A DNA stretch of 64,000 bases from Flavobacterium sp. JAD_PAG50586_2 (GTDB taxonomy: Bacteria > Bacteroidota > Bacteroidia > Flavobacteriales > Flavobacteriaceae). The DNA is taken from assembly GCA_023213215.1 (NCBI GenBank), contig CP096136.1:2356001-2420000 (forward strand). Direction: 5' to 3'. Below the pieces are notes generated by a model that searched no databases, was not told the DNA's origin, and was given only the letters and a program-made list of their open reading frames with translations. Position 1 is the stretch's first letter; each line of letters starts with the position of its first letter. Below, one piece after another: positions 5,193 through 42,573 of the stretch. The translations under genes and the position numbers were made by a program.

Positions 5193-5213
5193 TAATTGAC
5201 ATTAGTCTAAATT

Positions 5214-6206: not shown

Positions 6207-6268
6207 ATTACTTCATATTTTGCTCTCCAAAGAGGATTGCAGCAAGATGAAGGCTAAAAAAACACGTC

Positions 6269-6934
6269 ATGAGACACGGAAAAAAATTCAATCACTTAAG
6301 CAGACAGACCGGACATAGAAAAGCTATGTTGGCTAATATGGCTTGTTCTCTTATCGAGCACAAACGTATTAACACTACGGTTGCTAAAGCAAAAGCGCTT
6401 AAACAATTCGTTGAGCCACTTATAACAAAATCAAAAGAAGATACAACCCACAATCGTCGTATCTGTTTCGCTTACTTACGTAGCAAATATGCGGTAACTG
6501 ATTTATTCAGAGATGTAGCAGCTAAAGTAGGTGACCGTCCAGGTGGTTATACACGTATCATCAAAATGGGTAACCGTCTTGGAGATAACGCTGATATGGC
6601 AATGATCGAATTGGTTGATTTCAACGAATTATACAACGGTGGTAAAAAAGAGGAGAAAAAAGGAAGAACACGTCGTCCTAAGAAAACGGCTGCTCCAGTG
6701 GCAACTCCAGCTGCTCCAAAAGCAGAAGAAGTAACTCCTGCACCAGTTGTTGAAACTCCAGCTGCAGAGGTTGTAGAAACTCCAGTAGTAGAGGAAACTC
6801 CGGTTGCTGAAGTGGAAACTCCAGAAGTTGTTGAAGAAACTCCGGCAGTTGCAGAAGTTGAAGAAACTCCGGCAGCAGAAGAGACTCCAGAAGCACCAGC
6901 TACTGAAGAAGATAAAAAAGACGAAGAAGCATAA
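6269..6934 (+). CDS. rplQ: 50S ribosomal protein L17 with long acidic C-terminal tail
   Basis: L17 body occupies about residues 1-120 ([20 protein letters not shown], then [20 protein letters not shown] and [12 protein letters not shown]). After a basic stretch ([14 protein letters not shown], about 124-137) there is a low-complexity tail of roughly 80 residues built from Glu-Thr-Pro, Val and Ala repeats and ending EEDKKDEEA. Bacterial L17 is usually only about 115-130 residues, so the tail is an extension. Tails of this kind are, to my knowledge, seen in Bacteroidetes L17. It is the last gene of the operon, 22 bases before a strong terminator. Confidence 0.95.
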
Positions 6935-6956
6935 TGAATGCCACTTCATAAATACT

Positions 6957-6990
6957 AAAAGGATAAGCAGCAATGTTTATCCTTTTTTTT
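6957..6990 (+). terminator. Rho-independent terminator of the ribosomal operon
   Basis: A perfect 10-bp stem AAAAGGATAA (6957-6966) / TTATCCTTTT (6977-6986) with a 10-base loop is followed by a run of T residues to 6990. It lies 22 bases after the rplQ stop and closes the ribosomal protein / rpoA transcription unit. Confidence 0.85.
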
Positions 6991-7013
6991 AATCTGAACT
7001 TGTTTCAGATTCT

Positions 7014-7213
7014 GCCGAATTCAATAAAATTTTATTTAACTTTTAGTAGCACAGCTTTACGTTCTTAAGGATATCCAGTCCTGCTTTACGTTCCAATCTT
7101 TTCATAAATTGAAAATTTATAAAAAGGATTTCCACTGCAATCAGGGCTAAAATAGAACTTCAGAAATGTTTATAAACTCTCATAATTCTTTTTCTAAATT
7201 GAACAGAAATAAA
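7014..7213. other. Gene-free interval between rplQ and carA
   Basis: No ORF is supported between the rplQ terminator and the carA promoter. The interval contains two similar strings (GCTTTACGTTC at 7054-7064, CTGCTTTACGTTCC at 7081-7094). At 7127-7151, on the minus strand, it holds a 25-base motif that is repeated with 22 of 25 matches at 11609-11633. This looks like a copy of a dispersed intergenic element, not a gene. Confidence 0.45.
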
Positions 7214-7221
7214 TAAATTTG
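7214..7221 (+). promoter_or_regulatory. Bacteroidetes-type -7 element of carA
   Basis: TAAATTTG matches the Bacteroidetes -7 consensus TAnnTTTG exactly and ends 16 bases before the carA ATG, giving a very short leader. I did not find a convincing TTG-type -33 element at the expected distance, so the call rests on the -7 match and position. Confidence 0.4.
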
Positions 7222-7237
7222 CACAACACAACTACAC

Positions 7238-8359
7238 ATGCAACACACAACAAAAACAGCCGCAATTTTATTACTAGCCGACGGAACCATTTTCCACGGT
7301 AAATCCATCGGAATCCAAGGGAAAACCTTTGGAGAAGTTTGCTTCAACACCGGAATGACCGGTTACCAGGAAATCTTTACCGATCCTTCCTACTTCGGGC
7401 AAATCATGGTAGCCACCAATCCACACATCGGGAACTACGGGGTAAACGTCAACGAAGTAGAGGCCGATCAAATCATGATTTCAGGTTTAGTATGCAAAAA
7501 TTTCAGCTTTAACCATTCGCGCCCCGATTCCGAAAGTAATCTTTTTGACTATTTCCAAAAGCAAAACCTAATCTGCATATCTGATGTAGATACAAGGGCT
7601 TTGGTAAGTTACATCCGCGACAATGGTGCGCAAAACGCCGTTATCTGCACAGACGGAACTTCGGTAAGCGAACTAAAAGTTTTATTAGGCAAAGTTCCCG
7701 ATATGAAAGGTTTGGAACTGGCCTCAAAAGTTTCAACAGAAAAACCATATTTTTTCGGTGACGAAAACGCAAAGTATAAAATCTCAGCACTCGATTTAGG
7801 AATCAAAAGAAACATTCTAAGAAATCTTGCCAAAAGAGATTGCTACATAAAAGTATTTCCATACAACGCCAAATTTGAAGATATGAAATCCTTCAACCCT
7901 GATGGATACTTTCTGTCAAATGGCCCTGGAGATCCTGAACCATTAGCAGGAGCAATCGAAATCGCAAAACAAATCTTTACAACCGATACACCTCTTTTCG
8001 GCATTTGCCTTGGGCATCAGGTTATAGGTTTGGCTAACGGTGTTTCCACTTATAAAATGTTTAACGGTCACAGGGGAATAAATCATCCGATAATGAACGT
8101 GCTGACAGGAAAAGGCGAAATCACTTCACAAAATCACGGATTCGCAGTCAATAGGGAAGAATTAGAAAAGCATCCCGATTTAGAAATCACGCACTACCAC
8201 ATCAATGATAATACCGTTGCCGGAATGCGGATGAAATCAAAAAGTGTATTCTCTGTGCAATACCATCCCGAAGCCAGTCCTGGTCCACATGATGCTTCTT
8301 ATCTTTTTGATGATTTTATCACTAATATCCAAAAAGCAAAAAGTCTAATCGAAGTTTAA
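7238..8359 (+). CDS. carA: Carbamoyl-phosphate synthase small subunit
   Basis: Glutamine-hydrolysing subunit of carbamoyl-phosphate synthase, passing ammonia to CarB for pyrimidine and arginine synthesis. The 373-residue protein has the CarA-specific N-terminal domain (FNTGMTGYQEIFTDPSY, about 36-52). The class I glutamine amidotransferase domain follows, with nucleophile Cys257 in GICLGHQ and His343/Glu345 in QYHPEASPGPHD. carB is not in the window. Convergent with the next gene, it ends inside a hairpin that probably terminates both. Confidence 0.97.
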   Translation: MQHTTKTAAILLLADGTIFHGKSIGIQGKTFGEVCFNTGMTGYQEIFTDPSYFGQIMVATNPHIGNYGVNVNEVEADQIMISGLVCKNFSFNHSRPDSESNLFDYFQKQNLICISDVDTRALVSYIRDNGAQNAVICTDGTSVSELKVLLGKVPDMKGLELASKVSTEKPYFFGDENAKYKISALDLGIKRNILRNLAKRDCYIKVFPYNAKFEDMKSFNPDGYFLSNGPGDPEPLAGAIEIAKQIFTTDTPLFGICLGHQVIGLANGVSTYKMFNGHRGINHPIMNVLTGKGEITSQNHGFAVNREELEKHPDLEITHYHINDNTVAGMRMKSKSVFSVQYHPEASPGPHDASYLFDDFITNIQKAKSLIEV

Positions 8360-24034: not shown

Positions 24035-25221
24035 ATGAAGCGAGTTGTTGTTGGGCTTTCCGGAGGTGTTGATTCGAGTGTTGCTGCTTATCTTTTAAAG
24101 GAACAGGGCTATGAAGTCATTGGTCTTTTTATGAAAAACTGGCATGATGATTCGGTCACTATTTCCAATGAATGTCCATGGTTGGAAGACAGCAATGATG
24201 CACTTCTTGTTGCTGAAAAACTTGGAATTCCATTCCAGACAGTTGATTTAAGCGAACAATACAAGGAGAAAATCGTTGACTACATGTTTAAGGAATACGA
24301 ACAAGGCCGAACTCCAAATCCGGATGTGCTTTGCAATCGCGAAATCAAGTTTGATGTTTTTATGAAGATTGCTTTATCGCTTGGCGCTGATTTTGTGGCA
24401 ACAGGACATTATTGCAGAAAAGGCGAAATCGATGTTGACGGAAAAACGGTTTATCAATTAATAGCCGGTAAAGATGTAAACAAGGATCAATCTTATTTCC
24501 TTTGTCAGCTCTCGCAGGAACAGTTAGCAAAATCATTATTTCCGATAGGCGAATTAACCAAGCCTGAAGTTCGCGAAATAGCCCTACAATTGGATTTGGT
24601 TACAGCCGAAAAGAAAGACTCTCAAGGTTTGTGTTTTATAGGGAAAGTCCGTCTGCCCGAATTCCTGCAACAGCAATTACAACCCAAAGAAGGATTAATT
24701 TATGAAATCGATGCCGATAGCGAATTGTACAAACAGTCAAAACCAGAGTTTGGTTCGCTTGAAGAACAACTGGTTTTTGAGGCTAAAGGAATTTCCTATC
24801 TTCCGGAAAATGGAAAAGTTGTTGGTAAACATCAAGGCGCACATTATTTTACCATTGGGCAACGCAAAGGATTGAATGTGGGTGGAACCAAAGAAGCGCT
24901 CTTCATTATCGCAACCGATGTAAAATCTAATGCTATTTATACCGGTCAGGGCGCAAATCATCCTGGCTTACTCAAAAAACCTTAAGGGTTCAGCCCTCAG
25001 AGACTCATTGGATACGCGAAGATTTGAAATTGAAAAATGGAGAAACAATGCAGGTTATGGCTAGAATCCGTTATCGTCAGGAATTGCAAAAAGCCACGCT
25101 TCATCAATTTGAAAGTGGATTATATGTTTCTTTTGATGAGCTACAATCCGCCATTACCGAAGGCCAGTTTGTAGCCTGGAATATTGGCGATGAATTAGTT
25201 GGTTCAGGAGTAATTTCATAA
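24035..25221 (+). CDS. mnmA: tRNA 2-thiouridylase MnmA, apparent frameshift near the 3' end
   Basis: Thiolates U34 of certain tRNAs using sulfur relayed to the enzyme. The P-loop [15 protein letters not shown] (about residues 7-21), the first catalytic Cys in [12 protein letters not shown] and the second in [11 protein letters not shown] are present. The reading frame breaks at the six-A run 24974-24979, and one extra A gives a continuous protein of about 395 residues, the family length, ending at 25221. The C-terminal part after the break ([32 protein letters not shown]) matches the MnmA beta-barrel end. A sequencing error is the likely cause. Confidence 0.93.
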
Positions 25222-25246
25222 ATTAGCAGTTCCAACGAAATATGCT

Positions 25247-26872
25247 ATGAACAAAATCTTCGTTTTTGCCTTTTTCCTGCTGACTTATTGTGGCTATTCT
25301 CAGCAAGATGCCTGGGTTTATTTTACAGATAAGCCCAATTCACAATATTATTTTGACAATCCTTTAGAAATGCTTTCCCAGCGTTCACTAGACAGAAGGT
25401 CGAATCAGAATATAGCCATCGATATAAAAGACGTGCCCATTCATCAGCCTTATGTTGACGAAATAATTACTGCTCCCGGAATAGATGTTAAAGCCAAGTC
25501 AAAATGGCTGAATGCTGTCCATGTTCGTGGCTCGGTGGATGATATACAGAATTTGTCTTCATTAACTTTTGTCGACTATATTCAGTTTGCTGATGCCAGT
25601 CTGAACACCACTGGTAAAATTAAAAACGGTTCCAAGAATGTAGTTATGCAGAAGGTAAATAAGCAAATGGATACCGAAGCACTTTTCAACTACGGAAATT
25701 CAGGGAATCAGATTCAGATGCTGAACGGCCATTCATTACATCAGGCCAATTACACAGGAACTGGAAAAATAATTGCCGTTTTAGATTCCGGATTTTTAAA
25801 TGTGAATTCCGCTCCTGCTTTTGAAAGATTGTTTACAAATAATTTAATCCTCGGAGGTTACAATTACGTTAGCCAAAGTGCAGACGTTTATTCGCTCCAC
25901 AATCATGGTACCATGACGCTTTCCTGCATGGGAGGTTTTGTAGATGGCCAGCTTGTCGGAACAGCTCCTGATGCACAATATTATCTTTTTGTGACAGAAG
26001 ATGTAACCGAAGAAAATCCGGTAGAAGAAAGTTATTGGGTGGAAGCGGCAGAAGAGGCAGATCGATTGGGTGTAGATGTTATCTCTACTTCGTTGGGTTA
26101 TTATCAATTTGATAATCCAAATTACGGACATGCTTATAGTGACTTTACCGGAGATGAGGCTTATGCGTCGAAAGGCGCTAATATTGCTTTTAGCAGAGGA
26201 ATGATTGTCGTGGCAAGTGCAGGAAATTCAGGTGCCAGTGCCGAGCCTTTAAATCATGTGGGTGTTCCGGCGGAAGCTACCAATGTTCTGGCAGTTGGTG
26301 CAGTGAGAAATAATGAAGATCGTGCCCTTTTTAGTTCTGTTGGACCAAGTTTTGACGGAAGGATAAAACCCGATGTTATGGCGCAAGGTCAGGAAGCAAC
26401 TGTTGCCTATAATAACGTAATGATTTCGAGTGGAACTTCATTTTCATGTCCGATTTTGGCAGGAATGATTACGAGTTTTTGGCAGGCTGCTCCCAATTTA
26501 ACTAACGAGCAGGTAATCGATATTGTTAAGCAGTCTTCCGATAAATTTGCCAATCCTGATAATGCTTATGGTTATGGAATTCCCGATTTTCAATTGGCAT
26601 TGGATTTGGCACAGCTTTCTGTAAATGATCCTTCAAAGGGAAAATTTTTGGTTTATCCAAATCCGACTCACAATAATCTTTTTGTTTCTTTTCCAAATGG
26701 TTTTGATGAAGCTAAACTAATTCTTTATAATGCATTGGGACAAAATGTTTTTGAAAGATCGATTCAAAACTCTCAAACAGCAGTTTCTTTAGAGGACTTA
26801 AATTCTGGAATATACTTTTATAAAATAAACAGCAGTTCATTAGTGCAATCCGGAAAAATCATTAAAAACTAA
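25247..26872 (+). CDS. T9SS-exported subtilisin-family (S8) serine peptidase
   Basis: 541 residues. A signal peptide (about 1-19, ending YCGYSQQ) is followed by a propeptide-like region and an S8 catalytic domain. The triad is Asp180 (AVLDSGF), His220 (HNHGTMTLSC) and Ser398 (SSGTSFSCP), with oxyanion-type Asn327 (SAGNSG). From about residue 466 there is a type A T9SS sorting domain (KFLVYPNPTHNNLFVSF, ending SGIYFYKIN and KIIKN). The protein should cross the outer membrane by the type IX system and act as a surface or secreted protease. It starts 25 bases after mnmA. Confidence 0.95.
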   Translation: MNKIFVFAFFLLTYCGYSQQDAWVYFTDKPNSQYYFDNPLEMLSQRSLDRRSNQNIAIDIKDVPIHQPYVDEIITAPGIDVKAKSKWLNAVHVRGSVDDIQNLSSLTFVDYIQFADASLNTTGKIKNGSKNVVMQKVNKQMDTEALFNYGNSGNQIQMLNGHSLHQANYTGTGKIIAVLDSGFLNVNSAPAFERLFTNNLILGGYNYVSQSADVYSLHNHGTMTLSCMGGFVDGQLVGTAPDAQYYLFVTEDVTEENPVEESYWVEAAEEADRLGVDVISTSLGYYQFDNPNYGHAYSDFTGDEAYASKGANIAFSRGMIVVASAGNSGASAEPLNHVGVPAEATNVLAVGAVRNNEDRALFSSVGPSFDGRIKPDVMAQGQEATVAYNNVMISSGTSFSCPILAGMITSFWQAAPNLTNEQVIDIVKQSSDKFANPDNAYGYGIPDFQLALDLAQLSVNDPSKGKFLVYPNPTHNNLFVSFPNGFDEAKLILYNALGQNVFERSIQNSQTAVSLEDLNSGIYFYKINSSSLVQSGKIIKN

Positions 26873-27857: not shown

Positions 27858-28227
27858 TTCTTAAAAAAATTAACATTTAATTGTTGATAGGTTCAGATTT
27901 GAGTTTGAACTTATTAACAATTTTTTATTTTTAAGCTAAATCTAACTCTGGTGATAACTTTAATATTTTATTTTTCTAGAGTATAAGATATTGTTTTTCA
28001 AATAAATAAATGTTTTTAACGTGTTCTTATTGTTGTTGATAATGTTGATTAATTTGTTTATAACATTTTAACAAGTCAAATGCTGCGACTGTTTTAATGA
28101 GTAATATAGTGGAAGCTTTTTTGCTTAGGTGAATACTATATGTAATAGAGGTTAATTTATTTTTAACATAATATTATGAGGGGTAAAATTACACCTATTT
28201 GCAAAATCGTTTAAAATTGAATTGCTT
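27858..28227. other. Leader region of the giant adhesin gene
   Basis: 370 bases without a gene, very AT-rich. A possible nested hairpin pairs ATATAGT (28104-28110) with ACTATAT (28135-28141), and inside it AAGC (28113-28116) with GCTT (28123-28126). I find no perfect TAnnTTTG element; CTATTTG near 28196-28202 is the nearest. The region probably holds the promoter and a long leader for the adhesin operon. Confidence 0.35.
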
Positions 28228-31200
28228 ATGGGGATTACTACTTTTTCTAAAAAATCTTTTTTTATTTTATTTCTTTATTATTTCTTATCGGATATAGTAA
28301 AGCCTATTCTCAGTGTCCTACTGTTACAAATGCAACCCAGTCTTTTTGTGATATTCAATCACCTACAATTGCGAATCTTGTCGCTACAAACAATGGCGGT
28401 GGAATAAGGTGGTATGCTACCGCTACATCTACAGCTCCATTATCAAATGCAACAGGTTTATTGGATGGAGAAGATTATTTCGCTGATGACAATACAGGAA
28501 CATGCGGAACAAGACAAAGTGTTGTGGTCAGGATTTATTCAGCTCCAACTGGAGCTAATTTTCAGGGAGTTTGTGTGACTAATGCAAATCAGGCAACTCC
28601 ATCAAACCCACAATTCGTAATTTCAGGAAATGGATTAAGATGGTACACGGTGCCAAGTGGCGGAACGGCTATATCTAATTCTACTATACTTTCAGATAAT
28701 ACCATTTATTATATAAGTCAGACTAATCCAGATACAGGATGCGAAACTTCGAGGCTGCAATTATTTGTGAATGTTGGAGTCGTGCCGGTTCCTACAGGTG
28801 CTGCGGTGCAGGAGTTTTGTAATGTAGGTACTCCGCCAACTGTGGGCGATTTGGTTGCTTCGGGAAATAACAATTGGTATTTGACATCTACTTTTGGGGT
28901 TCCTTTAGATGCGGCAACACCCTTAGTAAATAGTCAATTTTATTATGCAACAACTGTTGATCCGCCTTGTGAAAGTACAGACCGGCTCCAGGTCCTGGTA
29001 AATATTTATGAACCAAATGATGCCGGGAGTAATGGAAATAGAAGTATTTGTGTAAGTCAGATTCCTACTACTCCTGCTTTTAATCTGTTTAATTTGTTAG
29101 GAGGATCGCCAGATAACACAGGTGTTTGGACTGGCCCAATAGCAACTTCCAATGGAGCGCAAGGAACATTGAATCCTTCCTCAATGACTGTAGCAGGAAG
29201 TCCTTATGTGTTTACTTACACTGTTTCTTCAGCTTTATGTGCAACTGATACATCAACTGTAACTGTAATAATTAATCCTACACCAACAGTAACAGTAACT
29301 AGCCCAACAATTTGCCAGGGAGCAACCGCAACTGTAACAGCTACTCCAAGTCCAGCCGGAACCTATGCCTATGTTTGGACAGTTCCAACAGGAGCTGCCA
29401 ATCCAGGGAACGTAGCTACATTTACAACTACCACAGCTGGCGTTTACAGTGTTGTTATTACCAATACAAACACCACTTGCCCAAGCCAGCCTGGTCAAAC
29501 CACGCTATTAATAAACCCTAGACCAACCGTTACAGTTACAAGTCCACCTGTTTGTCAGGGCACACCGGCAACAGTAACGGCTACTCCGATACCTGCGGGA
29601 ACTTATAATTATTCTTGGACGGTTCCAATTGGGGCAACAAATCCAGGAAACGTAGCGACATTTACAACTACTACAGCTGGAGTTTACAGCATAATTATCA
29701 CTAATCCCACTACTAGCTGTTCAAGTTTGCCGGCACAAGTTACGGTTGTGATAAATACACCGCCTACAGTAACAGTAACAAGTCCACCAGTCTGTCAGGG
29801 TAGTCCAGCAACGGTTACAGCCACACCAAATCCAGCAGGGACTTACAGTTATATATGGACAGTCCCAACAGGTGCTACTAATCCAGGTAATGTTTCCACT
29901 TTTACAACTACTATTGCAGGAGTTTATAGTGTAATTGCTACTAATACAAATACAAATTGTCCCAGCCAGCCAGGCCAAACCACAGTGGTTATAAATCCTA
30001 GACCAACTGTGACAGTAACAAGTGCTCCGGTTTGCCAGGGTACACCGGCAACAGTAACAGCTACGCCAACACCCGCCGGAACTTACACCTATTCATGGAC
30101 CGTTCCAACAGGCGCTACCAATCCAGGGAATGTAGCTACATTTACTACAACTATTTCAGGAGTTTACAGTGTCATAATCACTAATTCGACTACCACCTGT
30201 GCTAGCTTACCGGCACAGACAACAGTGGTTATCAATACAAGGCCGACTGTAACAGTTACAAGTCCGCCAGTGTGTCTAGGTACACCCGCAACCGTAACAG
30301 CAACTCCAAATCCGGCGGGAACATATACTTATACATGGACCGTTCCAGCGGGTGCGACCAATCCTGGTAACGTATCTACATTTGCAACTACTATAGCTGG
30401 AGTTTACAGCGTCATCATAACCAATCAAACTACTACCTGTGCAAGTTTACCGGCACAGACAACAGTTGTAATCAATCCAACACCAACAGTTACAGTAACG
30501 AGTGCTCCGGTTTGTCAGGGGACACCAGCCACAGTAACCGCTACACCAACACCAGCCGGAACCTATACTTATTCATGGACAGTTCCAATAGGGGCGACTA
30601 ATCCCGGGAACGTGGCCACATTTACCACAACTACAGCTGGAGTCTATAGCGTTATCATTACCAATCCAACGACTAGCTGTCCAAGCCAGCCTGGTCAGAC
30701 AACAGTAGTTATTAACCCAAGGCCAACAGTTACGGTAACAAGTCCTCCTGTTTGCCAGGGTACACCTGCAACAGTAACGGCTACACCAACACCAGCCGGA
30801 ACCTATACTTATACATGGACGGTTCCAACAGGAGCAACCAATCCGGGTAATGTTGCTACATTTACAACGACGACAGCTGGCGTTTACAGTGTGATCATTA
30901 CTAATCCAACAACTACATGTCCAAGCCAGCCAGCACAGACAACAGTAGTTATAAATCCGAGGCCGACAGTTACTGTAACAAGTACTCCGGTTTGTCAGGG
31001 AACACCTGCGATAGTTACGGCTACGCCAACACCAGCAGGAACTTATACCTATACATGGACAGTTCCAACTGGGGTTGCCAATCCGGGTAACGTTGCCACA
31101 TTTACTACAAGTACTCCCGGAGTTTACAGTGTCATCATTACCAATCCAACGACTACATGTCCAAGCCAGCCAGGCCAGACGACAGTAGTTATAAATCCTA

Positions 31201-34200
31201 GACCAATAGTTACTGTAACCAGTCCTCCAGTCTGTCAGGGAACACCTGCTACAGTAACGGCTACACCAACTCCATCGGGAACCTATACTTATACATGGAC
31301 TGTTCCGACGGGAGCAACAAATCCAGGAAATGTTGCTACATTTACTACTACAACTGCAGGTGTTTACAGCGTCATCATTACCAATCCAACGACTACATGT
31401 CTAAGCCAGCCAGGCCAGACGACAGTAGTTATAAATCCTAGACCGATAGTTACTGTAACCAGTCCTCCAGTCTGTCAGGGAACACCAGCTACAGTAACAG
31501 CTACTCCAACACCAGCTGGAACCTATACGTATACATGGACCGTTCCAGCGGGTGCGACCAATCCTGGTAACGTATCTACATTTGCAACTACTATAGCTGG
31601 AGTTTACAGCGTCATCATAACCAATCAAACTACTACCTGTGCAAGTTTACCGGCACAGACAACAGTTGTAATCAATCCAACACCAACAGTTACAGTAACG
31701 AGTGCTCCGGTTTGTCAGGGGACACCAGCCACAGTAACAGCTACACCAACACCAGCCGGAACCTATACTTATATATGGACAGTTCCGACGGGAGCAACAA
31801 ATCCGGGAAATGTTGCGAGTTTTACAACTACAACGGCTGGCGTTTACAGCGTAATAATTACCAATCCAACGACTACGTGCCCTAGCCAGCCAGGCCAGAC
31901 TACAGTCGTTATAAATCCAACACCAACTGTAGCAGTAACAAGTCCACCGGTCTGCCAGGGGACACCAGCTACAGTAACAGCTACTCCAACACCAGCGGGA
32001 ACCTATACTTACACATGGACTGTTCCGATAGGAGCGACGAATCCGGGTAACGTTGCTACATTTACTACTACAACTTCTGGTGTTTACAGCGTTATCATTG
32101 CCAATCCAACGACTACGTGCCCAAGCCAGCCAGGCCAGACTACAGTAGTCATTAATCCAGCACCAACCGTAGCGGTAACAAGTGCTCCGGTTTGTCAGGG
32201 TTCACCTGCTACAGTAACTGCTACTCCAACTCCAGCAGGTACATATACATATACGTGGACAGTCCCAACAGGCGCTACAAATCCGGGTAACGTTGCAACA
32301 TTTACTACGACCACCCCAGGCATTTACAGTGTTATTATTACCAGTCCAAGTACTACTTGTCCAAGTCAGCCAGGCCAGACAACTGTTGTAATTAATCCTA
32401 TACCAACCATAGCTGTAACAAGTACCCCTGTTTGTCAGGGTACTCCTTCCACAATAACAGCTATACCAACCCCAGCAGGAACCTATAGTTATGTATGGAC
32501 AGTTCCAACGGGAGCACCTAATCCGGGTAATGTAGCTACATTTACTACAACTACACCGGGAGTTTACATTGTAATTGCGACTAATGCAATCAGTACTTGT
32601 CCAAGCCAGCCGGCTCAGACAACTGTAGTCATCAATCCAACACCAACAGTTACTGTAGCGAGTCCACCGGTTTGCCAGGGTACACCTGCTACAGTGACGG
32701 CTACGCCCACACCAGCAGGAACTTATAGCTATGTTTGGACAGTCCCAACAGGGGCAACCAATCCGGGTAACGTTGCTACATTTACAACTACTACTGCAGG
32801 AGTTTACAATGTAATTGCAACTAGTACAAGCACTACATGTCCAAGCCAGCCAGGCCAGACTACGGTTGTTATTAATCCAACGCCAACGGTTGCTGTAACA
32901 AGTGCTCCTGTTTGCCAGGGTACACCGGCGACGGTGACGGCTACACCAACACCGGCAGGAATATATACTTATACATGGACGGTCCCAATAGGGGCTACTA
33001 ATCCAGGGAATGTTGCTACATTTACGACAACTACTGCAGGAGTTTACAGTGTAATCATTGCTAATCTGGCAACTACCTGTCCAAGCCAGCAGGCACAGAC
33101 AACAGTAGTAATCAACCCAAAACCAACAGTTGCAGTAACAAGTCCACCGGTTTGCCAGGGTACACCGGCAACAGTGACGGCTACACCAACACCAGCAGGA
33201 ACATATACTTATACATGGACGGTTCCAACAGGGGCAACCAATCCGGGTAATGTTGCTACATTTACGACGACTACTGCAGGAGTTTATAGTGTCATCATTA
33301 CTAATCCGGCAACTACCTGTCCAAGCCAGCCGGCACAGACAACAGTAGTCATCAACCCAACACCAACAGTTGCAGTAACGAGTGCTACGGTTTGTCAGGG
33401 CACACCAGCAACCGTAACAGCTACACCAACACCAACAGGAACCTATACTTATACGTGGACAGTTCCAATTGGGGCGACCAATCCGGGTAATGTTGCTACA
33501 TTTACGACTACTACTGCGGGAATTTACAGTGTTATAATTACCAATTCATCAACAACCTGCCCAAGTCAGCCTGGACAAACAACAGTCATTATCAATCCAG
33601 TACCAAACGCAGGAAATGATGGTACATTGAATATTTGTTCTAATCAAAATCCAGTAGATTTATTTGATTCTTTATTAGGTACTCCTCAAACGGGTGGAAC
33701 ATGGTCTCCGGCTTTGACCAGTGGAACAGGAATATTTAACCCTGCTGTTGATGCACAGGGAGTTTATACTTATACAATCACTGGAATTGCACCATGTGCT
33801 GATGATACAGCTACTGTCACAGTAACTGTTACTCCAGGGCCAGAAGCCGGAGCTGATAATTCACTTACTGTATGTGTTAATAATCCGGCGCAGGATTTAT
33901 TCTTATTATTAGGACCTACTGCCCAAACTGGAGGAACATGGTCACCTGCAATGGCGAGTGGAACAGGATTTTTTGATCCTGCTGTCGATCCACAGGGCGA
34001 TTATGTTTATACCTTATCTGGAACTTTACCATGCTCAAATGATTTCGCAACTATTTCGGTAACGGTAAACCCAATTCCGGATGCAGGAACTAACGGCACT
34101 AAAGCATTCTGTTCTAACGGAACACCACAAGATTTATTCCTTTCACTTGGCGGTACACCACAAGCGGGAGGTACCTGGTCACCGGCATTAACGAGTGGAA

Positions 34201-37200
34201 ACGGAATGTTTGACCCAACGGTTGATCCAACCGGAGTTTACATTTATACCGTAGGAAGTACATGTATTACACCGTCAACTGCGACGGTATCCGTTACAAT
34301 AGTTACTGCTCCAAATGCTGGGGTTTCACATACACTAAACACTTGTGCAAACGTAACTTCCTTAGATTTATTTACAGGTTTAGATGGCACACAGAATAGT
34401 GGTGGAAACTGGGCTGATGACGATGCTACAGGAGCATTGGCAAATAACATTTTCAATCCATCATCTGTAGGAGTTGGAACCTATCATTTTACTTATACAG
34501 TACCAGGAACATTACCTTGCGCTAATGCAACTTCGACAGTAACAGTTATTGTTAATCCTTTACCAAACGCCGGAGCGGCAATCGCTGCGCCATCAGTTTG
34601 TACTTCAGTCGGGACTATAGATTTAAATACTTTACTAACAGGTCAGGATGCAGGCGGAACTTGGTCAGCAACGACGCCAGTGAATATTTCAGGCTTTGCT
34701 CAGGGAACTTATACATACACTTATACAGTAACAAACTCTTGTGGTGTTGATGCACAGCCTGTGCAGTTTATAGTATTACCAAATCCAATATTAACCACTA
34801 CCAATGTTACTTCTTCTCAAGCTTGTGTTGGAACTGATGTTACAGTTACCTTAACGGGAATGACCGACGGAACTTACAACTTAAATTACAGTTTAATCGG
34901 AAGTAATACATTAGCTAATCAAACTGCTACCGTTATTATTTCTGGCGGAACAGGAAGCTTTATTATTCCCGCTGCAACTGTTCCAAATACAGGTACGACT
35001 ACAATTACTTTCAATACTATTCAGGACCCGACAACTACCTGCCAGGTAACTTTAGTTAATATAATTGGGACAATTACAATTAGCCCATTAGTACAGGTTG
35101 ACAACGCTGATATCACTGTCTCTTCGGTATGTTTAGGAAGTGATGCGACTGTTGTTATCTCTGGCGCTGCGGATCTTCCTGATGGTGTTTATCAGTTTAA
35201 TTATGTAATTCCAACGGGTACTCCTGCAACCGGAAATTCAGGAGATGTAACTATAACAGGAGGGGACGGACAATTCACAATTCCATCATCTGTTTTTGGA
35301 GGAGTTGGAAATTATACCATCACCATAAGTGGCATCACAACGCCAACTGGCTGTTCTAATCCGGCTGAAGATGCCAATATTACTTTCGCAGTTGTTGCTC
35401 CTCTAACAGCAGGAACATTTAGTGGAATTGTTTCTGTTTGTACATCATCAGCAACTTTAGACTTGACTACTTTATTGACAGGACAAGATACAGGAGGAAC
35501 CTGGACAGATAGCAGTTCAGTTGTGGTTATATCTCCTTTGGATATATCAGCTTTCACAGCCGGAGATTATACCTATACTTATACAGTGACAAGTTTGTGC
35601 GGAACAGATACTGAAGATGTTCAATTCACTATTTTACCAAGTCCACTTTTAACGCCAGCAAATATTACCATCAATCCAGTTTGTATCGGAGTTGATGTTG
35701 TTGTGGATTTTTCAACAATGGTTGATGGAACTTACACTTTGAACTACGACTTAACAGGAAATAATACATTAGCAAATCAAACAGCAACTGTTGTAATTTC
35801 GGGAGGAATAGGAAGCTTTACAATTCCTGCTGCGAATGTACCGATTGCAGGACCTACTATTATTACTTTTAATTCAATATTAGATACGGTTTCAACATGC
35901 CAGTCTACTCTGACCAATGTTAGTGCAACTATCACAATTAATCCAATAGCTGATATTGATAATACCGACATCACTGTTTCAAATATTTGTCTCGGAAGCG
36001 ATGCAACAGTTGCTATTTCCGGTGCGGCAAATCTTCCTGATGGAGTTTATCAGTTCAACTATGTTATTCCGGCCGGTACGCCAGCAACAGGAAATTCCGG
36101 AAACGTAACGGTTACAGGAGGAAATGGCCAGTTTATAATTCCTGCTTCTGTTTTTGCTACGGCAGGAAGTTATACAATTACAATAAATGAAATACTGGCT
36201 GCCTCAGGCTGTTCTAATACTTCAGAAAATGCAAACCTTACATTTAATGTTGAAACGCCAATAACGGCAGGAACATTTACCGGAATAGTTTCAATATGTG
36301 CATCAGTTGGTGTGTTTGACCTGACAACATTATTAACAGGACAGAGTGCAGGCGGAGTTTGGACAGACAGTGCTTCAGCGGTAGTGACTTCTCCGTTGAC
36401 TATAATAAGCTTCACCGCCGGAACTTATAGCTATACTTATACTGTAACCAATGCGTGCGGAACAGATACAGAAGTTGTACAGTTTACTGTCTTAGCTACT
36501 CCTGTATTGACAACCGTTAATGTTACCATTTCTCCAAATTGCGTTGGTACTGATGCCACTGTAAACCTTACCGGAATGGTCGACGGAACCTACACTCTGA
36601 ATTACGATTTAACCGGAAGTAATACGTTAGCAGGACAAACAGTTGTGGTTACAATTACAGCAGGTATCGGTAGCTTTACAGTTCCAACTGCTTCAATTCC
36701 GAATGTCGGAATTACAGTAATTACTTTCACGAGTATCGTTAACAACGCTACAACTTGCGCCAGTACTTTAATAAATGTGGCCTCACAAATAATTGTTACA
36801 CCAGTAGCAGATATTGATAATGCTAATCTAAGTATAGCGAATATTTGCCTCGGAAGTAATGTAGTTGTAAACATCACTGGAGCAACAAACCTTCCTGATG
36901 GTGTTTACCAATTTAATTATTCTATTCCGGGTGCAACTCCGGTAACCGGAAATTCAGGAAATGTAACTATGACAGGTGGAGCGGGTTCGTTTACAGTTGC
37001 GGCAGCTTCATTTACTGCGGCAGGAAATTATACGTTGACAGTTACAGGAATTATTGCTTCGTCGGGTTGTAGTAATGCTAACGAAAATGCTACTGCTAAT
37101 TTTACCATTAACCTGTCTCCAAGTATGAATGGAGCAACAATGACAGCACAGGATACCTGTATCAATAACAGTAGTAATGTTACCATTTCAGGAATCACTA

Positions 37201-37973
37201 ATCTGCCTGACGGAACTTACACATTAAGTTATCAGTTAGCTGGAGCGAATACAGCATCGGGAACATTATCTGTACTATTTACTAATGGAGGGGCGACTTT
37301 CACTATACCAGGAACTGATATCGTAAATAACGGAGCGACATCCATACAAATGACTAACCTCACTTCTCCAACATTGACATGTGCTGTTGGTGGTGGTGGA
37401 ACTTTGATTGCTAATTTCAACGTCATAGCATTACCTACGCCAGTATTGATTACTGACGGATATCAATTCTGCGGAAGCGATGTTCCTGCACCAACGATAG
37501 CCGATTTATCTGCTAATATTGTTGGAACTCCAACTATGATTTGGTATGATGCAATAACAGGTGGAACAGCTTATAACAATACCGATCTTTTAGTGGATGG
37601 AGCAACTTATTACGGAGCTGAAGTATCGCAAAGTGGTTGTGAAAGTTCAAGGCTTGCGGTTCAGGTTGATTTGACTTTCTGCGATATCAAAATTCCGGAT
37701 GGATTCTCTCCTAACAATGATGGTATTAATGATACTTTCGAAATTCCTAACCTTGCTATCCTATATCCAAACTTCAAAATGGAAATCTATAACCGTTACG
37801 GAAACCTTGTTTACAAAGGAAATATAAACGTACCAAATTGGGACGGAACAACTAAAGAAGGAGGCGTGAAATTGGGCGATAACTTACTGCCAACAGGTGT
37901 CTATTTCTATATTCTCGACTTTAGTGACGGAATCAAAAAGGCAATTCAAGGGAGATTATATCTAAACAGGTAA
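28228..37973 (+). CDS. Giant repetitive T9SS adhesin (SprB-like) with type B C-terminal domain
   Basis: About 3,248 residues after repair of one frameshift. The ATG at 28228 opens a signal peptide (ending SKAYSQC) in one frame, and the rest is in the next. One extra base in the A run 28249-28254 or T run 28257-28263 joins them. Architecture: Ig-like N-terminal units (to about residue 351); 18 tandem 80-residue repeats (about 352-1791; 29281-33600). Then five units of 74-84 residues with GGTWSPAL-type cores (to about 34780) and three units of about 285 residues (from about 34790, 35645 and 36503). The C-terminus is a gliding-motility-associated type B sorting domain (IPDGFSPNNDGINDTFEI, IYNRYGNLVYKG, PTGVYFYILDF). 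It is predicted to be secreted by the type IX system and displayed at the surface for adhesion or gliding. The next gene is its likely PorP/SprF-type partner. Confidence 0.93.
29281..33600 (+). repeat. 18 tandem 240-bp coding repeats in perfect register
   Basis: Unit starts fall at 29281 and every 240 bases to 33361, with no insertion or deletion anywhere, and the next unit (33601) belongs to a different repeat class. Each unit encodes 80 residues with two conserved cysteines (PVCQG near residue 11, TTCPSQ near residue 61) and a WTVPTGATNPGNVATF core. Synonymous positions differ widely between units while the protein is strongly conserved, except for one pair of segments 1,200 bp apart that is virtually identical. 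Confidence 0.95.
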
Positions 37974-37980
37974 CGGAGAA

Positions 37981-38952
37981 ATGAGTGCAACTATGAAACA
38001 TAAAATTATAAAATATCTCTTAGTATTACTTGTCGTGTTTTCGACTTCAAAAATGAGCGCACAACAAGATCCACAGTTTACACATTATATGTACAATATG
38101 AGTGTGATAAATCCGGCCTATGCAACAGATAATGCCGATGTGATTAATCTTGGTGGATTATACCGCGCACAATGGGTTGGGATAAAAGGAGCGCCGACAA
38201 CGCAAACATTTTTCGCTCACAAACCACTGTCAAAAAGAGTAGAAATTGGTATCTCTGTTGTTCATGATGAAATTGGCGATGTAGTTAAGGAAAATAACAT
38301 CTTTGCTGATTTTGCGTATGTGCTGCCAATTGGCGAAACTACTAAGTTGTCTTTCGGATTAAAAGCCGGAGTTACCTTGTTTGATACCAATTTTAACGGA
38401 TTCGATTTAACTGATCCAAGGCCTGATCCGGCATTTCAGAATAACATCAGTCAAACGTTTCCGAATTTTGGAGCAGGAACTTACTTGTTCGGATCTAATT
38501 ATTATCTGGGTTTATCTACACCAAACTTAATGACTTCGAGACATATCGAAACCATAAACGGTCATCCGGGAAGCGGAGTAGAATCGGTTCACTTTTTTAT
38601 GACGGGTGGTTATGTCTTTACGTTTAACGGAAATGATAATTTTAAACTAAAGCCTGCATTCATGGCGAAAGGGGTAGAAGGTGCACCGCTGGCATTAGAT
38701 CTAACGACCAACGTTTTAATCAATAACAAATTCGAATTGGGAGTTGGCTACCGAATGGGTGATTCCGTTAGCGGATTGGCAAGTTTCTTTATTTCGCCAC
38801 AACTAAGGATTGGTTATTCGTATGATTATACGCTTACTAATCTTGATGCCTTCAATTCAGGTACACACGAAGTTTTTTTACTATTTGACTTAGATTTAAG
38901 TAAACTTTCCTCTTCCGGTAAAGGATATGATAAATCGCCACGATTCTTTTAA
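37981..38952 (+). CDS. PorP/SprF family T9SS membrane protein
   Basis: 323 residues. A signal peptide (to about residue 28, STSKMSAQQ) is followed by the family start DPQFTHYMYNMSVINPAYA, then repeated amphipathic strands of an outer-membrane beta-barrel (GLYRAQWVGIKGAPTTQTFF, ELGVGYRMGDSVSGLASFFI, QLRIGYSYDYTLTNL). Proteins of this family attach or escort type B T9SS cargo such as SprB and are usually encoded directly downstream of the cargo. Here it starts 7 bases after the adhesin stop, so it is very probably its dedicated partner. The start could also be the internal ATG four codons later (MKHKIIKYLL). Confidence 0.95.
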   Translation: MSATMKHKIIKYLLVLLVVFSTSKMSAQQDPQFTHYMYNMSVINPAYATDNADVINLGGLYRAQWVGIKGAPTTQTFFAHKPLSKRVEIGISVVHDEIGDVVKENNIFADFAYVLPIGETTKLSFGLKAGVTLFDTNFNGFDLTDPRPDPAFQNNISQTFPNFGAGTYLFGSNYYLGLSTPNLMTSRHIETINGHPGSGVESVHFFMTGGYVFTFNGNDNFKLKPAFMAKGVEGAPLALDLTTNVLINNKFELGVGYRMGDSVSGLASFFISPQLRIGYSYDYTLTNLDAFNSGTHEVFLLFDLDLSKLSSSGKGYDKSPRFF

Positions 38953-38953
38953 A

Positions 38954-40843
38954 ATGAAAATGATGAAAAAAATATACTACATACTTTTTGTTTTTTGCAG
39001 TATCACCACTCTTTTTGCCCAAAAGAAAATCACTGTTAAACAGGCTGACGCTTTATTCAAAAGCCGATCCTATGTAAAGGCTGCAGAAGCTTACGAACAG
39101 CTTCCGCAGTCCAAACAGGTGCTGCAAAATCTTGGAGACAGTTACTATTACAACTTTCAAATGACCAATGCGGTTCGCGCTTACGGCCAATTATTTTTTA
39201 CTTTCAAGGACAGTGTAAAAAAAGAGGTTTTCTTTAGATATGCCAACGCACTGAAAGGAACAAAGGACTTCGATAAAGGCGACGTTATCATGACCGAATA
39301 TTTAGGTTTCGAACAGAATACGCCTAAGTTCATGAAAAACATTACCCGAAATACACCGAACAGTTTCAAATTGCAGATGATGTCTAAGAACAAAACCAAT
39401 GGCGATTTTGGAATTTCTTTTTATGGTGATCAGGTTACGTTTGCTTCAGTGAGAAATGCTGTCGAGAAATCGTATGGCTGGAATGAAAGGCCCTATCTCG
39501 ATTTGTTTTCAGCAAAAGTAAGCGAACAAGGACAACTAACAAATGTTGAACCTTTCTCTGATGTAATCAATACCAAAAAACACGAAAGCAACGCAACATT
39601 CAGTGCCGATTTAAAAACCATGTATTTCAACAGAAGTGGTGAAAAACAGAATAAGGTTGGTGATGAAAAAGTGGCTATGATTAAAATCTATAAGGCCGAA
39701 TTTGTAAATGGAAAATGGGATAAAGTAACGCTGTTGCCTTTCTCAAGTGACAGTTATTCTGTAGAGCATCCAGCCTTAACAAAAGACGGAAAGAAACTTT
39801 ATTTTGCCAGCGATATGCCGGGTTCTTTAGGTTCGTTTGATATTTATGTGGTCGATATCAATGAAGACGGAACTTACAGCCAGCCCAAAAATTTAGGGGA
39901 AACCATCAATACAATCCAAAGGGAGCAATTTCCTTTTGTAACAGATGACGGAACGTTATATTTTGCTTCAGACGGTCATCAGGGTAACGGAAATTTAGAT
40001 GTCTTCATGAGCCTAAAAATCAGTGACACCGAGTTTGATAAACCATTGAATTTAGGTTCAACCATCAATAGTGAAATGGACGACTTCAATTTCATCCTTG
40101 ACGATAAAACTAGTAAAGGTTATTTTGCTTCCAACAGAACCGGTGATGATAATCTATACACATTCGTTCAGGAAGAAAACAAAATGCAGTATGCGGTTGA
40201 AGGTGAAGTTCGGGATATGAAATCGATGCAGTTGCTGCCGGGTTCGACTGTAAAGCTGTTTGATGAAAATGGCAACCTTCTTGAGGAAGTTTTAGTTGGA
40301 AAAGATGGTTCATTCGTCTTCAACACAGAACCAAACAAGAAATACAAAATCATGGCTTTCAAGGATTTTTACATTCCGGCTGAAGCCACTTTTGATACCA
40401 GCCAAAAAGGAAAGGTTTATATCGATTTGCAGATGAAAGTCGAGTCGTATTATGATGCGGAAGACATCATCAACAAGAAAGACGACGGAACGGTTTTAAT
40501 CGAACTGGAAAACATCTATTTCGATTTGGACAAATGGAACATCAAACCACAGGCGGCAGAAGTGCTGAATGTGCTTTTGGGAATACTTAAAAAATATCCA
40601 TACATGGAAATCGAGATTGGTTCACACACCGATTCACGCGCTTCTGATATGTATAACCTTAGGCTTTCCAACAAAAGAGCAGCCTCTGCTTTGGAATACC
40701 TGGTTAAGAATGGCATAGACAGAAAGCGACTGCGTTCTATAGGTTACGGAGAAACCAAACCACTGATTATTTGCCCTAAAAATGATTGTACAGAAGCTGA
40801 GCATGCATCAAACCGTAGATGTACGTTCATGATCTTAAAATAA
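38954..40843 (+). CDS. OmpA-family protein with TPR, WD40-like and carboxypeptidase-regulatory domains (PorE-like)
   Basis: I chose the ATG at 38954 (MKMMKKIYYILFVFCSITTL), 1 base after the previous stop, giving 629 residues; an earlier in-frame ATG at 38927 lies inside the PorP gene and would spoil the signal peptide. Order: signal peptide; TPR-like region (about 25-130); PD40/WD40-like blades (ATFSADLKTMYFNRSG, ALTKDGKKLYFASD, FVTDDGTLYFASDGHQGNGN, KGYFASNRTGDDNLYTF); a carboxypeptidase-regulatory-like fold (VEGEVRDMKSMQLLPGSTVK); and an OmpA peptidoglycan-binding domain (IYFDLDKWNIKPQA, IGSHTDSRASDMYNLRLSNK). This layout matches PorE-type T9SS components. It could anchor the adhesin system to peptidoglycan. 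Confidence 0.93.
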   Translation: MKMMKKIYYILFVFCSITTLFAQKKITVKQADALFKSRSYVKAAEAYEQLPQSKQVLQNLGDSYYYNFQMTNAVRAYGQLFFTFKDSVKKEVFFRYANALKGTKDFDKGDVIMTEYLGFEQNTPKFMKNITRNTPNSFKLQMMSKNKTNGDFGISFYGDQVTFASVRNAVEKSYGWNERPYLDLFSAKVSEQGQLTNVEPFSDVINTKKHESNATFSADLKTMYFNRSGEKQNKVGDEKVAMIKIYKAEFVNGKWDKVTLLPFSSDSYSVEHPALTKDGKKLYFASDMPGSLGSFDIYVVDINEDGTYSQPKNLGETINTIQREQFPFVTDDGTLYFASDGHQGNGNLDVFMSLKISDTEFDKPLNLGSTINSEMDDFNFILDDKTSKGYFASNRTGDDNLYTFVQEENKMQYAVEGEVRDMKSMQLLPGSTVKLFDENGNLLEEVLVGKDGSFVFNTEPNKKYKIMAFKDFYIPAEATFDTSQKGKVYIDLQMKVESYYDAEDIINKKDDGTVLIELENIYFDLDKWNIKPQAAEVLNVLLGILKKYPYMEIEIGSHTDSRASDMYNLRLSNKRAASALEYLVKNGIDRKRLRSIGYGETKPLIICPKNDCTEAEHASNRRCTFMILK

Positions 40844-40878
40844 AGTTAGTTAAGAAGTAGTTGTAGAATTTTGATTAG

Positions 40879-40910
40879 AATGCACATCGTAGTTGGTGTG
40901 CATTTTTTTT
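40879..40910 (+). terminator. Terminator of the adhesin operon
   Basis: Stem AATGCACA (40879-40886) / TGTGCATT (40897-40904), followed by an eight-T run to 40910, 35 bases after the OmpA-family stop. It closes the adhesin / PorP / OmpA cassette. Confidence 0.8.
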
Positions 40911-40933
40911 ACGCGCAATTCATCCTGAATCTG

Positions 40934-40941
40934 TATTTTTG
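40934..40941 (+). promoter_or_regulatory. -7 element of the phosphatase gene
   Basis: TATTTTTG fits TAnnTTTG and ends 18 bases before the ATG at 40960. No clear -33 element. Confidence 0.35.
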
Positions 40942-40959
40942 TATGACACAATTATCGTT

Positions 40960-42573
40960 ATGAAAAAATTTCGTCCTCTTGTATTTTTATTATTTGCCTT
41001 AAATCTAAGCGCACAGCAACGTCCCAAACTGGTTGTGGGAATTGTCGTTGACCAAATGAAAATGGAATACCTCTACCGCTTTCAAAATGATTTCTCCGAT
41101 AATGGATTTAAAAGGTTGATGAACGATGGCTTTACCTTTTATAATATGCATTACAATTATCTGCCCACTTATACTGCGCCCGGACATGCTTCTATTTACA
41201 CCGGAACAACTCCGGCAATACACGGAATTGTGAGCAACGAATGGTATAGCAGAACCGCAAAGAAAGACGTTTATTGCACCGATGATGCGTCTGTTCAAAC
41301 CTTGGGTGGCGGAACAAAGGAAGAAGGAGAAATGTCTCCAAAAAACCTTCAGGCGACTACGGTTACGGATGAACTTAGATTGTCTACAAATTTTAAAGGA
41401 AAAGTGATTGGCATCAGTATGAAAGACCGTGGCTCAATTCTTCCCGCTGGGCATTTTGCCAATTGGGCCTTTTGGTACAGCAAAACAGGAAACTTTATTT
41501 CGAGTACATTTTATGGTGAAAAACTTCCGGATTGGGTAACCGAATTCAATGCAAAGAAAAACTACATGAAGTATATCAATCAGGGATGGAATTTACTAAA
41601 ACCTGCCGCGATTTATGATGAAAGCCTTGCAGATGATAATCCCTACGAAGGAAAATTATACAAAGTAGATAAACCGGTTTTTCCTTATGACCTAAAAGCA
41701 ATGTATGAAAAGAATGATGCCGGAGTGTTGCGCGTAACACCGTTTGGAAATGATTTCATTGTTGATTTTGCCAAAGAAGCCATTGAGAAAGAGGGATTAG
41801 GAAAAGATACTGTTACCGATTTCCTTGCGGTTAGTTTCTCTTCAACCGATTATGTTGGGCATATATTAGGGCCACGTTCTATGGAATTACAGGATACTTA
41901 TCTGCGTTTGGACCTAACTATAGCCGATTTCCTAAACTACTTAGATAAAACGGTTGGTAAAGGCAATTATCTTGTCTTCCTAACTGCCGATCATGCCGGT
42001 GCAGAAAATGCAAGGTTCCTAAAAGACAATAAGTACGATATAACAAATCTGGGTGGTAAGGAAATGAAGAAAGAAATCAAGAAGTTTTCTACAGATACCT
42101 TTGGTGAAGATTTAATAGAAGAATACGGAAGCTTCAATGTATATCTGAATAAAGAAAAAATCAAAACTAAGAATTTAGATTTAACCAAGGTTAAACAGGC
42201 TTTTAAAGATTACCTGATGACTCAAAACTACATTAAGCGGGTTTATACCGAAGAAGAAATCTTAGCTAACTCAGGTGCGGATTATCATCTGAACTGCATT
42301 GCCAAAGGTTATGATGCAACACAAAACGGTGATTTGATATTCATTTATAAGCCAGGCTTTATTGAATATGGCGCAACAGGAACATCTCATGGAACGACCT
42401 ATAGCTATGATACCCATGTGCCGTTATTATTTTATGGCTGGAATATTAAAAAAGGGGAAAGCTACGACAGGAAGGTTATTACAGAAATTGCCCCGACGCT
42501 GGCACAGAAACTAAAAATCACCCTTCCAAACGGAACGGAGTCTGAAGTGCTCACGGAGGTTTTGGGGAAATAG
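40960..42573 (+). CDS. pafA: PafA-like alkaline phosphatase
   Basis: Periplasmic metallophosphatase of the alkaline phosphatase superfamily, 537 residues with a signal peptide (MKKFRPLVFLLFALNLSAQQ). The expected PafA residues are all present: Asp31 (GIVVDQM), nucleophile Thr72 (TYTAPGHASIY), Asn93 (VSNEWY), Lys155 and Arg157 (SMKDRGS, the K-x-R pair), Asp297/His301 (SSTDYVGH), Asp344/His345 (TADHAG) and His486 (YDTHVP). The first five lie exactly seven residues before the numbers I recall for Elizabethkingia PafA. It should release phosphate from a broad range of monoesters. I use ATG 40960 instead of the TTG at 40939. Confidence 0.92.
   Translation: MKKFRPLVFLLFALNLSAQQRPKLVVGIVVDQMKMEYLYRFQNDFSDNGFKRLMNDGFTFYNMHYNYLPTYTAPGHASIYTGTTPAIHGIVSNEWYSRTAKKDVYCTDDASVQTLGGGTKEEGEMSPKNLQATTVTDELRLSTNFKGKVIGISMKDRGSILPAGHFANWAFWYSKTGNFISSTFYGEKLPDWVTEFNAKKNYMKYINQGWNLLKPAAIYDESLADDNPYEGKLYKVDKPVFPYDLKAMYEKNDAGVLRVTPFGNDFIVDFAKEAIEKEGLGKDTVTDFLAVSFSSTDYVGHILGPRSMELQDTYLRLDLTIADFLNYLDKTVGKGNYLVFLTADHAGAENARFLKDNKYDITNLGGKEMKKEIKKFSTDTFGEDLIEEYGSFNVYLNKEKIKTKNLDLTKVKQAFKDYLMTQNYIKRVYTEEEILANSGADYHLNCIAKGYDATQNGDLIFIYKPGFIEYGATGTSHGTTYSYDTHVPLLFYGWNIKKGESYDRKVITEIAPTLAQKLKITLPNGTESEVLTEVLGK

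Follow-up and report, generated by a model that had tools for sequence, protein, structure and literature searches.

A three-gene type B adhesin cassette in Flavobacterium sp. JAD_PAG50586_2, probably static, with a shuttle tail that may hint at cargo fate

Does a giant surface adhesin that is encoded beside its own outer-membrane shuttle and a presumed wall anchor serve gliding, or does it hold the cell in place? The question is raised by three consecutive forward-strand genes within a 64,000-nucleotide stretch (hereafter the window; positions 2,356,001-2,420,000) of Flavobacterium sp. JAD_PAG50586_2, whose genome consists of a single 3.81 Mb contig. In order, they encode a cargo of the type IX secretion system (T9SS) with a type B C-terminal domain (CTD), a PorP/SprF-family shuttle and a PorE-like protein (table 1). 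Our analysis favors, at a probability of roughly three in four, a cassette that presents a single, very long adhesin at a set site on the cell, static and tethered to the wall, and that serves attachment, not gliding. Within the sequence, this reading draws on the families, the operon layout, the peptidoglycan-contact residues, the lack of track-linking cysteines and the conservation of the set; by analogy with relatives, it draws on work by others, namely the PorE-PorP-PG1035 complex, shuttle dependence and static Fjoh_3952.

Such gene sets have been described before. PorE is reported to form a complex with PorP and PG1035, a type B protein, in Porphyromonas gingivalis; the same source reports that SprF binds SprB, places six Flavobacterium johnsoniae porP-like genes next to porE-like genes and proposes that PorP-like proteins by themselves hold mobile cargo, with the wall as an additional hold on static cargo (PMC9143113). 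A 2025 study counts five cargo-shuttle-PorE operons in F. johnsoniae, reports that export of the Fjoh_3952 CTD needs its shuttle, that Fjoh_3952 is static and that SprB and Fjoh_4750 move, and presents anchoring via the PorE homolog as its authors' speculation (PMC12618676). SprF, in turn, is described as joined to GldK by a disulfide bond that involves a Cys-x-Cys tail (PMC12635249). Given the published complex, operons and static cargo, the cassette belongs to an already described kind: it is another member of a known arrangement, and the tail of its shuttle is possibly a new clue.

The layout points to a single transcription unit. Adhesin and shuttle genes are spaced by 7 bases; the third open reading frame (ORF), as listed, begins at 38927 and overlaps the end of the shuttle gene, and a start at its Met10 leaves a 1-base gap. 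The order, strand and gaps given in the initial annotation are thus borne out, the 1-base gap on condition of the Met10 start, as is the terminator that it placed after the third gene; a second hairpin lies upstream of the cassette. Cargo, shuttle and PorE-like gene form one predicted operon flanked by two strong hairpins, the layout of the F. johnsoniae static cassettes. A simple hairpin scan picked out the upstream hairpin only; the downstream one came from the folding-energy analysis. The Bacteroidetes promoter consensus, TAnnTTTG, was uninformative: it occurs 83 times in the window, where chance alone predicts 85, and not at all at 28000-28228.

That the second gene codes for a PorP/SprF protein, as annotated from the start, is clear from the family profiles (TIGR03519, 258.4 bits, cut-off 90.55; PF11751, 265.2 bits, cut-off 22.3). 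The protein is 92% identical to PorP of Flavobacterium sp. AS60 and 90% to PorP of F. paronense. It is modeled as a barrel, with moderate confidence (mean predicted local distance difference test, pLDDT, 70), and is best matched by porins and FadL-type barrels; ranks 5 and 6 fall to a 345-367-residue chain of T9SS translocon entries (6h3i_F and 8gl6_F; template modeling score, TM, 0.57), which we infer to be PorV. A sequence search of the PDB with the shuttle gave nothing useful. The final strand of the model stops at residue 305, and pLDDT is below 50 in the last 14 of the 18 trailing residues. The twin-cysteine (C-x-C) tail of the SprF type is absent: the shuttle contains zero cysteines and ends SPRFF.

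The cargo consists of Ig_7 domains followed by a 240-bp repeat array, other sequence and the type B CTD, a domain already called in the initial annotation and found here over both curated cut-offs (TIGR04131, 52.2 bits, cut-off 35; CHU_C, 80.9 bits, cut-off 27). Loose motif counts give about 20 repeat units in the F. paronense frame (2,981 residues) and 1 in that of another relative, G119 (2,679 residues); with array size differing so between relatives, the stalk seems to expand and contract. Pfam matches to Exotox-A_bind and Shr-like_HID on the adhesin were dismissed as repeat noise, no single stretch passing alone.

The third protein follows the domain order of PorE, that is, tetratricopeptide repeat (TPR), propeller, regulatory and OmpA domains, and aligns with the PorE model over its full length (36-616). 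Of the domains first annotated, PD40 and OmpA are over cut-off, the carboxypeptidase-regulatory match is below it, and the TPR part, with no Pfam TPR match, is visible as N-terminal helices in a good model (mean pLDDT 86). Fold matches include TolB over about 330 columns, a loose match (TM 0.27-0.42, root-mean-square deviation near 12), and OmpA-type domains, among them the C-terminal domain of P. gingivalis PorE (6TOP), which is also the best PDB match for the OmpA domain (69 bits). In 6TOP an Asp, an Asn and an Arg are reported to contact peptidoglycan (PMC7192894); they align with D569, N577 and R584 of the window protein, and the spacing D-x7-N-x6-R is kept in 71/71 PorE-like proteins of the genus. 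Judged by these residues, the third protein probably binds peptidoglycan; the suggestion that its gene ties the display site to the wall gains this much, and the anchor idea is already in print.

The set is conserved as a set. There are 25 matches to the type B CTD in the genome, and PorP loci number seven; a PorE-like gene follows five of the latter (the window, L009, L010 with a broken PorE, L011 and L012) and none follows L013 (CNC tail) or L014 (broken PorP). A comparison with other cargo-porP pairs in related genomes, recommended in the initial annotation, finds the same three genes again. Among the best 80 of 320 named loci, picked by similarity to the window PorP and including Flavobacterium, Algibacter, Winogradskyella and Mesonia, a PorE-like gene lies 3' of PorP in all 80 (79 by scan, L197 by its ORF), the shuttle ends SPRF[FY] in 80/80, and a type B CTD frame stands directly upstream in 78, the others being L168, where the PorP frame continues, and L228, at the end of a contig. 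Cassettes of the window's lineage, with a PorE-linked type B adhesin, thus recur across Flavobacteriaceae. Within genomes, PorP distances correlate with those of the CTD (rho 0.71; 125 pairs, 65 triads, 15 genomes) and of PorE (rho 0.64), with 0 of 2,000 permutations as high in either case. By this measure, cargo, shuttle and PorE-like gene diverge as units, which is not by itself proof of binding. With this co-divergence, the contact residues and the match to the F. johnsoniae operons (PMC9143113, PMC12618676), the proposal of a type B cargo with its own shuttle and a PorE-like third protein holds well. Elsewhere, in five Flavobacterium genomes (L139, L143, L146, L148, L156), PorP domains occur within open frames of about 1,200-1,600 residues; in L139 the rest of the long protein shows no other Pfam family.

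We suggest the following route to display. The adhesin would enter the periplasm via Sec and be exported by the SprA translocon, which would read its type B CTD; the cognate PorP would collect the CTD and stay bound, so that PorP would suspend the adhesin from the outer membrane. From the periplasmic side, the PorE-like protein would bind PorP, and its OmpA domain would grip peptidoglycan and so render the adhesin static. The unit had been proposed to be self-contained; it is not, because export needs the shared SprA translocon, encoded elsewhere in the genome, where SprA and GldJ are intact. Attachment is favored because the shuttle lacks the track cysteines of SprF and because the operons with a linked PorE make up the static class in F. 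johnsoniae; the statement that gliding or attachment cannot be read from sequence proved too cautious on these grounds (PMC12635249, PMC12618676). The pairing of a giant, repetitive type B cargo with a PorP/SprF protein encoded next in line also recalls sprB-sprF, and since the genome encodes GldJ and a (broken) GldK, the shuttle might instead couple the adhesin to the moving GldJ/GldK track, with the third gene as an accessory. We regard this gliding role as very unlikely: SprF is reported to require its twin cysteines for gliding (PMC12635249) whereas the window shuttle has none, a PorE-like gene is present although the mobile cargos of F. johnsoniae are described as lying outside operons with one (PMC12618676), and L013, a separate SprF-type locus with a CNC tail, is the better sprB/sprF candidate. 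With the track cysteines absent and L013 available, gliding was set aside.

The end of the shuttle may say more. A terminal PR[FY]F motif was first noticed in the genome's own five shuttles and then counted in other genomes. In 14 other Flavobacterium genomes (95 shuttles, from 107 hits less 3 weak ones, 5 fusions to long proteins and 4 that were broken or truncated), a PorE-like gene lies downstream of 61/61 shuttles with this ending and of 2/34 others; of the 26 with a cysteine in the last 15 residues, one has such a neighbor. Outside the genus (62 shuttles in 10 genomes, from 69 of 74 hits taken with 5 weak or partial ones omitted, and 1 without a PorP frame and 6 over 400 residues dropped), the counts are 9/10 for PR[FY]F shuttles versus 8/52 for the rest. 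Fisher p values, which ignore relatedness, are 2.8e-23 and 1.0e-5, respectively. Left out were 13 weak hits in eleven other genomes and 30 hits in three more Flavobacterium genomes, and the final neighbor counts use a uniform, wider span, which added one exception (L310). Breaking the rule are L283, a PR[FY]F shuttle without a PorE-like neighbor, and L287, with tail CPRL and a PorE-like neighbor, among the rows dropped for length. PorE-linked shuttles of the genus without the exact motif are L092 (TSRFF) and L090 (NTAA), and several PorE-linked exceptions carry near-motif tails (SPRL, SLRHF, GPRFFN, SLRYFQ, TSRFF); in L061, L067 and L082, a longer PorE-like frame lies beyond short PorE-like fragments or extra genes. 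Position -5 is S or T in 71/71 PR[FY]F shuttles of the genus and C in 15/26 cysteine-tail shuttles without PorE, and position -4 is P in 71 of the former, where the group definition fixes it, and in 21 of the latter. Without recourse to the group definition, SPRF is invariant in 29/29 orthologs in an alignment that reaches as low as 52% identity to the window shuttle, and the preceding linker varies in length and sequence. Among other tails encountered, many shuttles beyond the family (e.g. L249, L267, L272, L286) end in a single-cysteine C-P-x-F (CPSF, CPKF), between the SprF type and SPRFF; L295 and L307 are PorP genes with cysteine-free tails, PRWL and PRIW, followed by lipoprotein genes and, in L307, also by frames that look like GldK, GldL and GldM, names given by reading of sequence ends, not by search.

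Genome G136, which we take to be F. johnsoniae UW101, has PorP loci whose order and strands are as expected for the named genes. On that assignment, SprF (L131) has CPC in its tail, Fjoh_1677 (L120) CNC and the Fjoh_4750 shuttle (L142) CFGC, none with a PorE, and Fjoh_3951 (L054/L058) ends SPRFF and has one; the C-x-x-C tail of L142 would escape a simple motif for SprF-type tails. These tails, in four shuttles only and on an inferred assignment, agree with the published mobile and static fates. A tentative idea, to which we give somewhat less than an even chance, is that the terminal [S/T]-P-R-[F/Y]-F on a disordered periplasmic tail docks the PorE-like protein and so parks the adhesin on the wall, and that a cysteine at the same place, as in SprF-type tails, hooks the shuttle to the moving GldK track. 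The docking site would perhaps be the TolB-like propeller, whose top fold match, a loose one, is TolB with a bound colicin peptide. If so, swapping tails would convert a static adhesin to gliding and the reverse, and, should the tail rule hold, the fate of a type B adhesin, gliding or fixed attachment, would be predictable from about five shuttle residues. As to what steers a shuttle to either fate, the 2025 study attributes the choice to the pairing of CTD and shuttle, with anchoring of the static ones by PorE as a speculation (PMC12618676). No printed occurrence of the SPRFF/PRFF motif with PorP/SprF was found in the text of the open-licence papers listed; the pattern of tail and PorE neighborhood may be new.

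Several findings weigh against static display or against the tail rule that would accompany it. The link between tail and PorE largely reflects common descent: a tree computed with the tails left out contains only 5 independent pairs, with a median p of 0.25, and on average the traits differ the same way in 2.7, the opposite way in 0.0 and not at all in 2.3. Outside the genus, 5/29 cysteine-tail shuttles do have a PorE-like neighbor. At L012, the cargo (5142-7709) directly 5' of a PorE-linked shuttle has a CTD of the FSLKR type, as at the SprF-type locus L013. The gene preceding that cargo carries a GWIYINR-type CTD, the type usual for PorE-linked shuttles. The third protein lacks a lipobox by a simple pattern, unlike P. 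gingivalis PorE, and the same pattern finds none in the 71 genus and 79 named PorE-like proteins; this agrees with the published prediction that F. johnsoniae PorE homologs are not lipoproteins (PMC7192894), and, there being no lipid anchor, contact with PorP may keep the protein at the outer membrane. By its profile scores it is not strictly a PorE, reaching 302.9 of the 600 bits required by the NCBI PorE model (NF052230) and, in the OmpA-like CHU_0125 model (NF053607), 384.9 of 620, likewise under cut-off yet above its PorE score; all 29 tested orthologs match both models. Moreover, P. gingivalis PorP-PG1035 is reported to form without PorE (PMC9143113), and display may thus not require the third gene. 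Taken together, these last points would suit a general factor of outer-membrane integrity or stability, as CHU_0125, in place of a tether for this adhesin. We consider that improbable, since such a factor would not need five operon-bound copies in a genome, and here there is one copy per shuttle, inherited with it.

A final difficulty for fixed display is that the adhesin gene as assembled cannot be read from its start, and that gldK is broken too. The frame of ATG 28228 runs into stops; the long frame extends from after a TAA at about 28248 to the end of the gene (3,240 codons) with no in-frame ATG upstream. The type B CTD given in the initial annotation stands, as does the size of about 3,250 residues if both frames belong together; the intact single frame from 28228 does not. 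Relatives have an ATG, then a hydrophobic stretch and the CPT-like start of the mature protein; among the best 30 rows of the start alignment (the window and 29 loci from relatives, with two genomes represented twice), only the window has ATG and hydrophobic stretch of the signal peptide in separate frames and lacks an in-frame ATG, and most relatives' ATGs align with 28228. One base thus appears to be missing near 28249-28263, and by this alignment 28228 is the correct start; a non-ATG start of the long frame is ruled out on the same ground. With A6 and T7 tracts next to it just past the start codon, where slippage could act as a switch, the break might be real, a phase-variable tract having turned the adhesin off or a fresh pseudogene. 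We hold this to be rather unlikely. Unrelated genes are broken alike: mnmA (window 24035-25240), which changes frame after 316 codons, the remainder matching L048 and L050 to the end; the T9SS core gene gldK (C1:983640-984982, L325), divided between frames of 312 and 169 residues that overlap; a PorP (L014); and a PorE (L010). Runs of A7/T7 or longer are frequent (45 in the window), none of the 29 other aligned rows is out of frame, and genome completeness is 94.56% versus 99-100% for the 14 Flavobacterium genomes compared. An assembly error is most likely, given the other broken genes, and the adhesin gene is therefore probably intact in the cell. Phase variation at the adhesin start is possible but unsupported, and no direct case in flavobacterial adhesins was found among the open-licence matches listed (six of 49).

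Around the cassette, the window encodes an S8 peptidase with a type A T9SS sorting domain (25247-26872) and an alkaline phosphatase PafA (40939-42573; 796 bits, cut-off 650). Two Rfam elements exceed their gathering scores, a Flavo-1 RNA (7073-7152, reverse strand) and an S4-Flavobacteria ribosomal leader (4534-4566, forward strand). A plasmid origin was dropped after blastn of the PorP-PorE DNA gave no match among 72,556 plasmid records, a result that holds for that collection only.

Table 1. Features of the cassette and its borders (window coordinates).
Feature	Position	Strand	Basis
Terminator-like hairpin between FabK-like gene and cassette	27879..27922	+	20 pairs; folded stretch 27872-27932, -21 kcal/mol, z -6.8, 0/200 shuffles as good
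Adhesin gene, type B T9SS cargo	28228..37973	+	about 3,248 codons if both frames belong together; frame broken near start in assembly
A6 and T7 tracts; one base missing within or beside, relative to kin	28249..28263	+	alignment of relatives' starts
Adhesin stalk, 18.1 tandem copies of a 240-bp (80-residue) unit	29274..33606	+	17 motif-anchored units of exactly 80 residues, mean pairwise identity 84%
Type B (TIGR04131/CHU_C) C-terminal sorting domain, ends GRLYLNR	37686..37970	+	profile matches
PorP/SprF-family shuttle barrel, 323 residues, cysteine-free	37981..38952	+	profiles, model, fold matches
Codons for C-terminal SPRFF of the shuttle, closing an 18-residue tail past the last predicted strand	38935..38949	+	sequence, ortholog alignment, model
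PorE-like protein: helical (TPR-like) part, PD40 propeller, regulatory-like domain, OmpA; no lipobox	38954..40843	+	profiles, model, fold matches
OmpA peptidoglycan-binding domain with D569, N577, R584 (numbered from 38927)	40517..40771	+	profile and alignment to 6TOP
Terminator-like hairpin and T run 3' of cassette	40877..40912	+	folded stretch 40870-40912, -17.2 kcal/mol, z -7.4

How does the cassette compare with known systems? If G136 is F. johnsoniae, the shuttle of the Fjoh_3952 operon ends PRFF and is followed by a PorE-like gene, as in the window; yet the window set is of another lineage, its PorP being 58% identical to that of a different G136 locus (2.74 Mb, L051), where the adhesin frame has 872 residues versus about 3,250 with an array of 80-residue repeats in the window. 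Fjoh_3952-3951-3950 and its sister operons have the same three genes in the same order (PMC12618676, PMC9143113). The P. gingivalis PorE-PorP-PG1035 system likewise joins a type B cargo, a PorP barrel and a protein with TPR, propeller, regulatory and OmpA domains, with contact residues conserved (PMC9143113, PMC7192894); P. gingivalis PorE, however, is described as a lipoprotein essential for its T9SS, whereas the window protein has no lipobox, falls under the PorE cut-off and is one of five operon-bound copies. CHU_0125 of Cytophaga hutchinsonii gives the best full-length NCBIfam match to the third protein, though one below the cut-off of that model, and is described as a Pal homolog affecting cellulose degradation (PMC5891637). 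SprB-SprF, finally, shares the giant repetitive type B cargo with a shuttle directly downstream (PMC12635249); but the Cys-x-Cys tail of SprF is reported to bond GldK, whereas the window shuttle is cysteine-free, ends SPRFF and is followed by a PorE-like gene.

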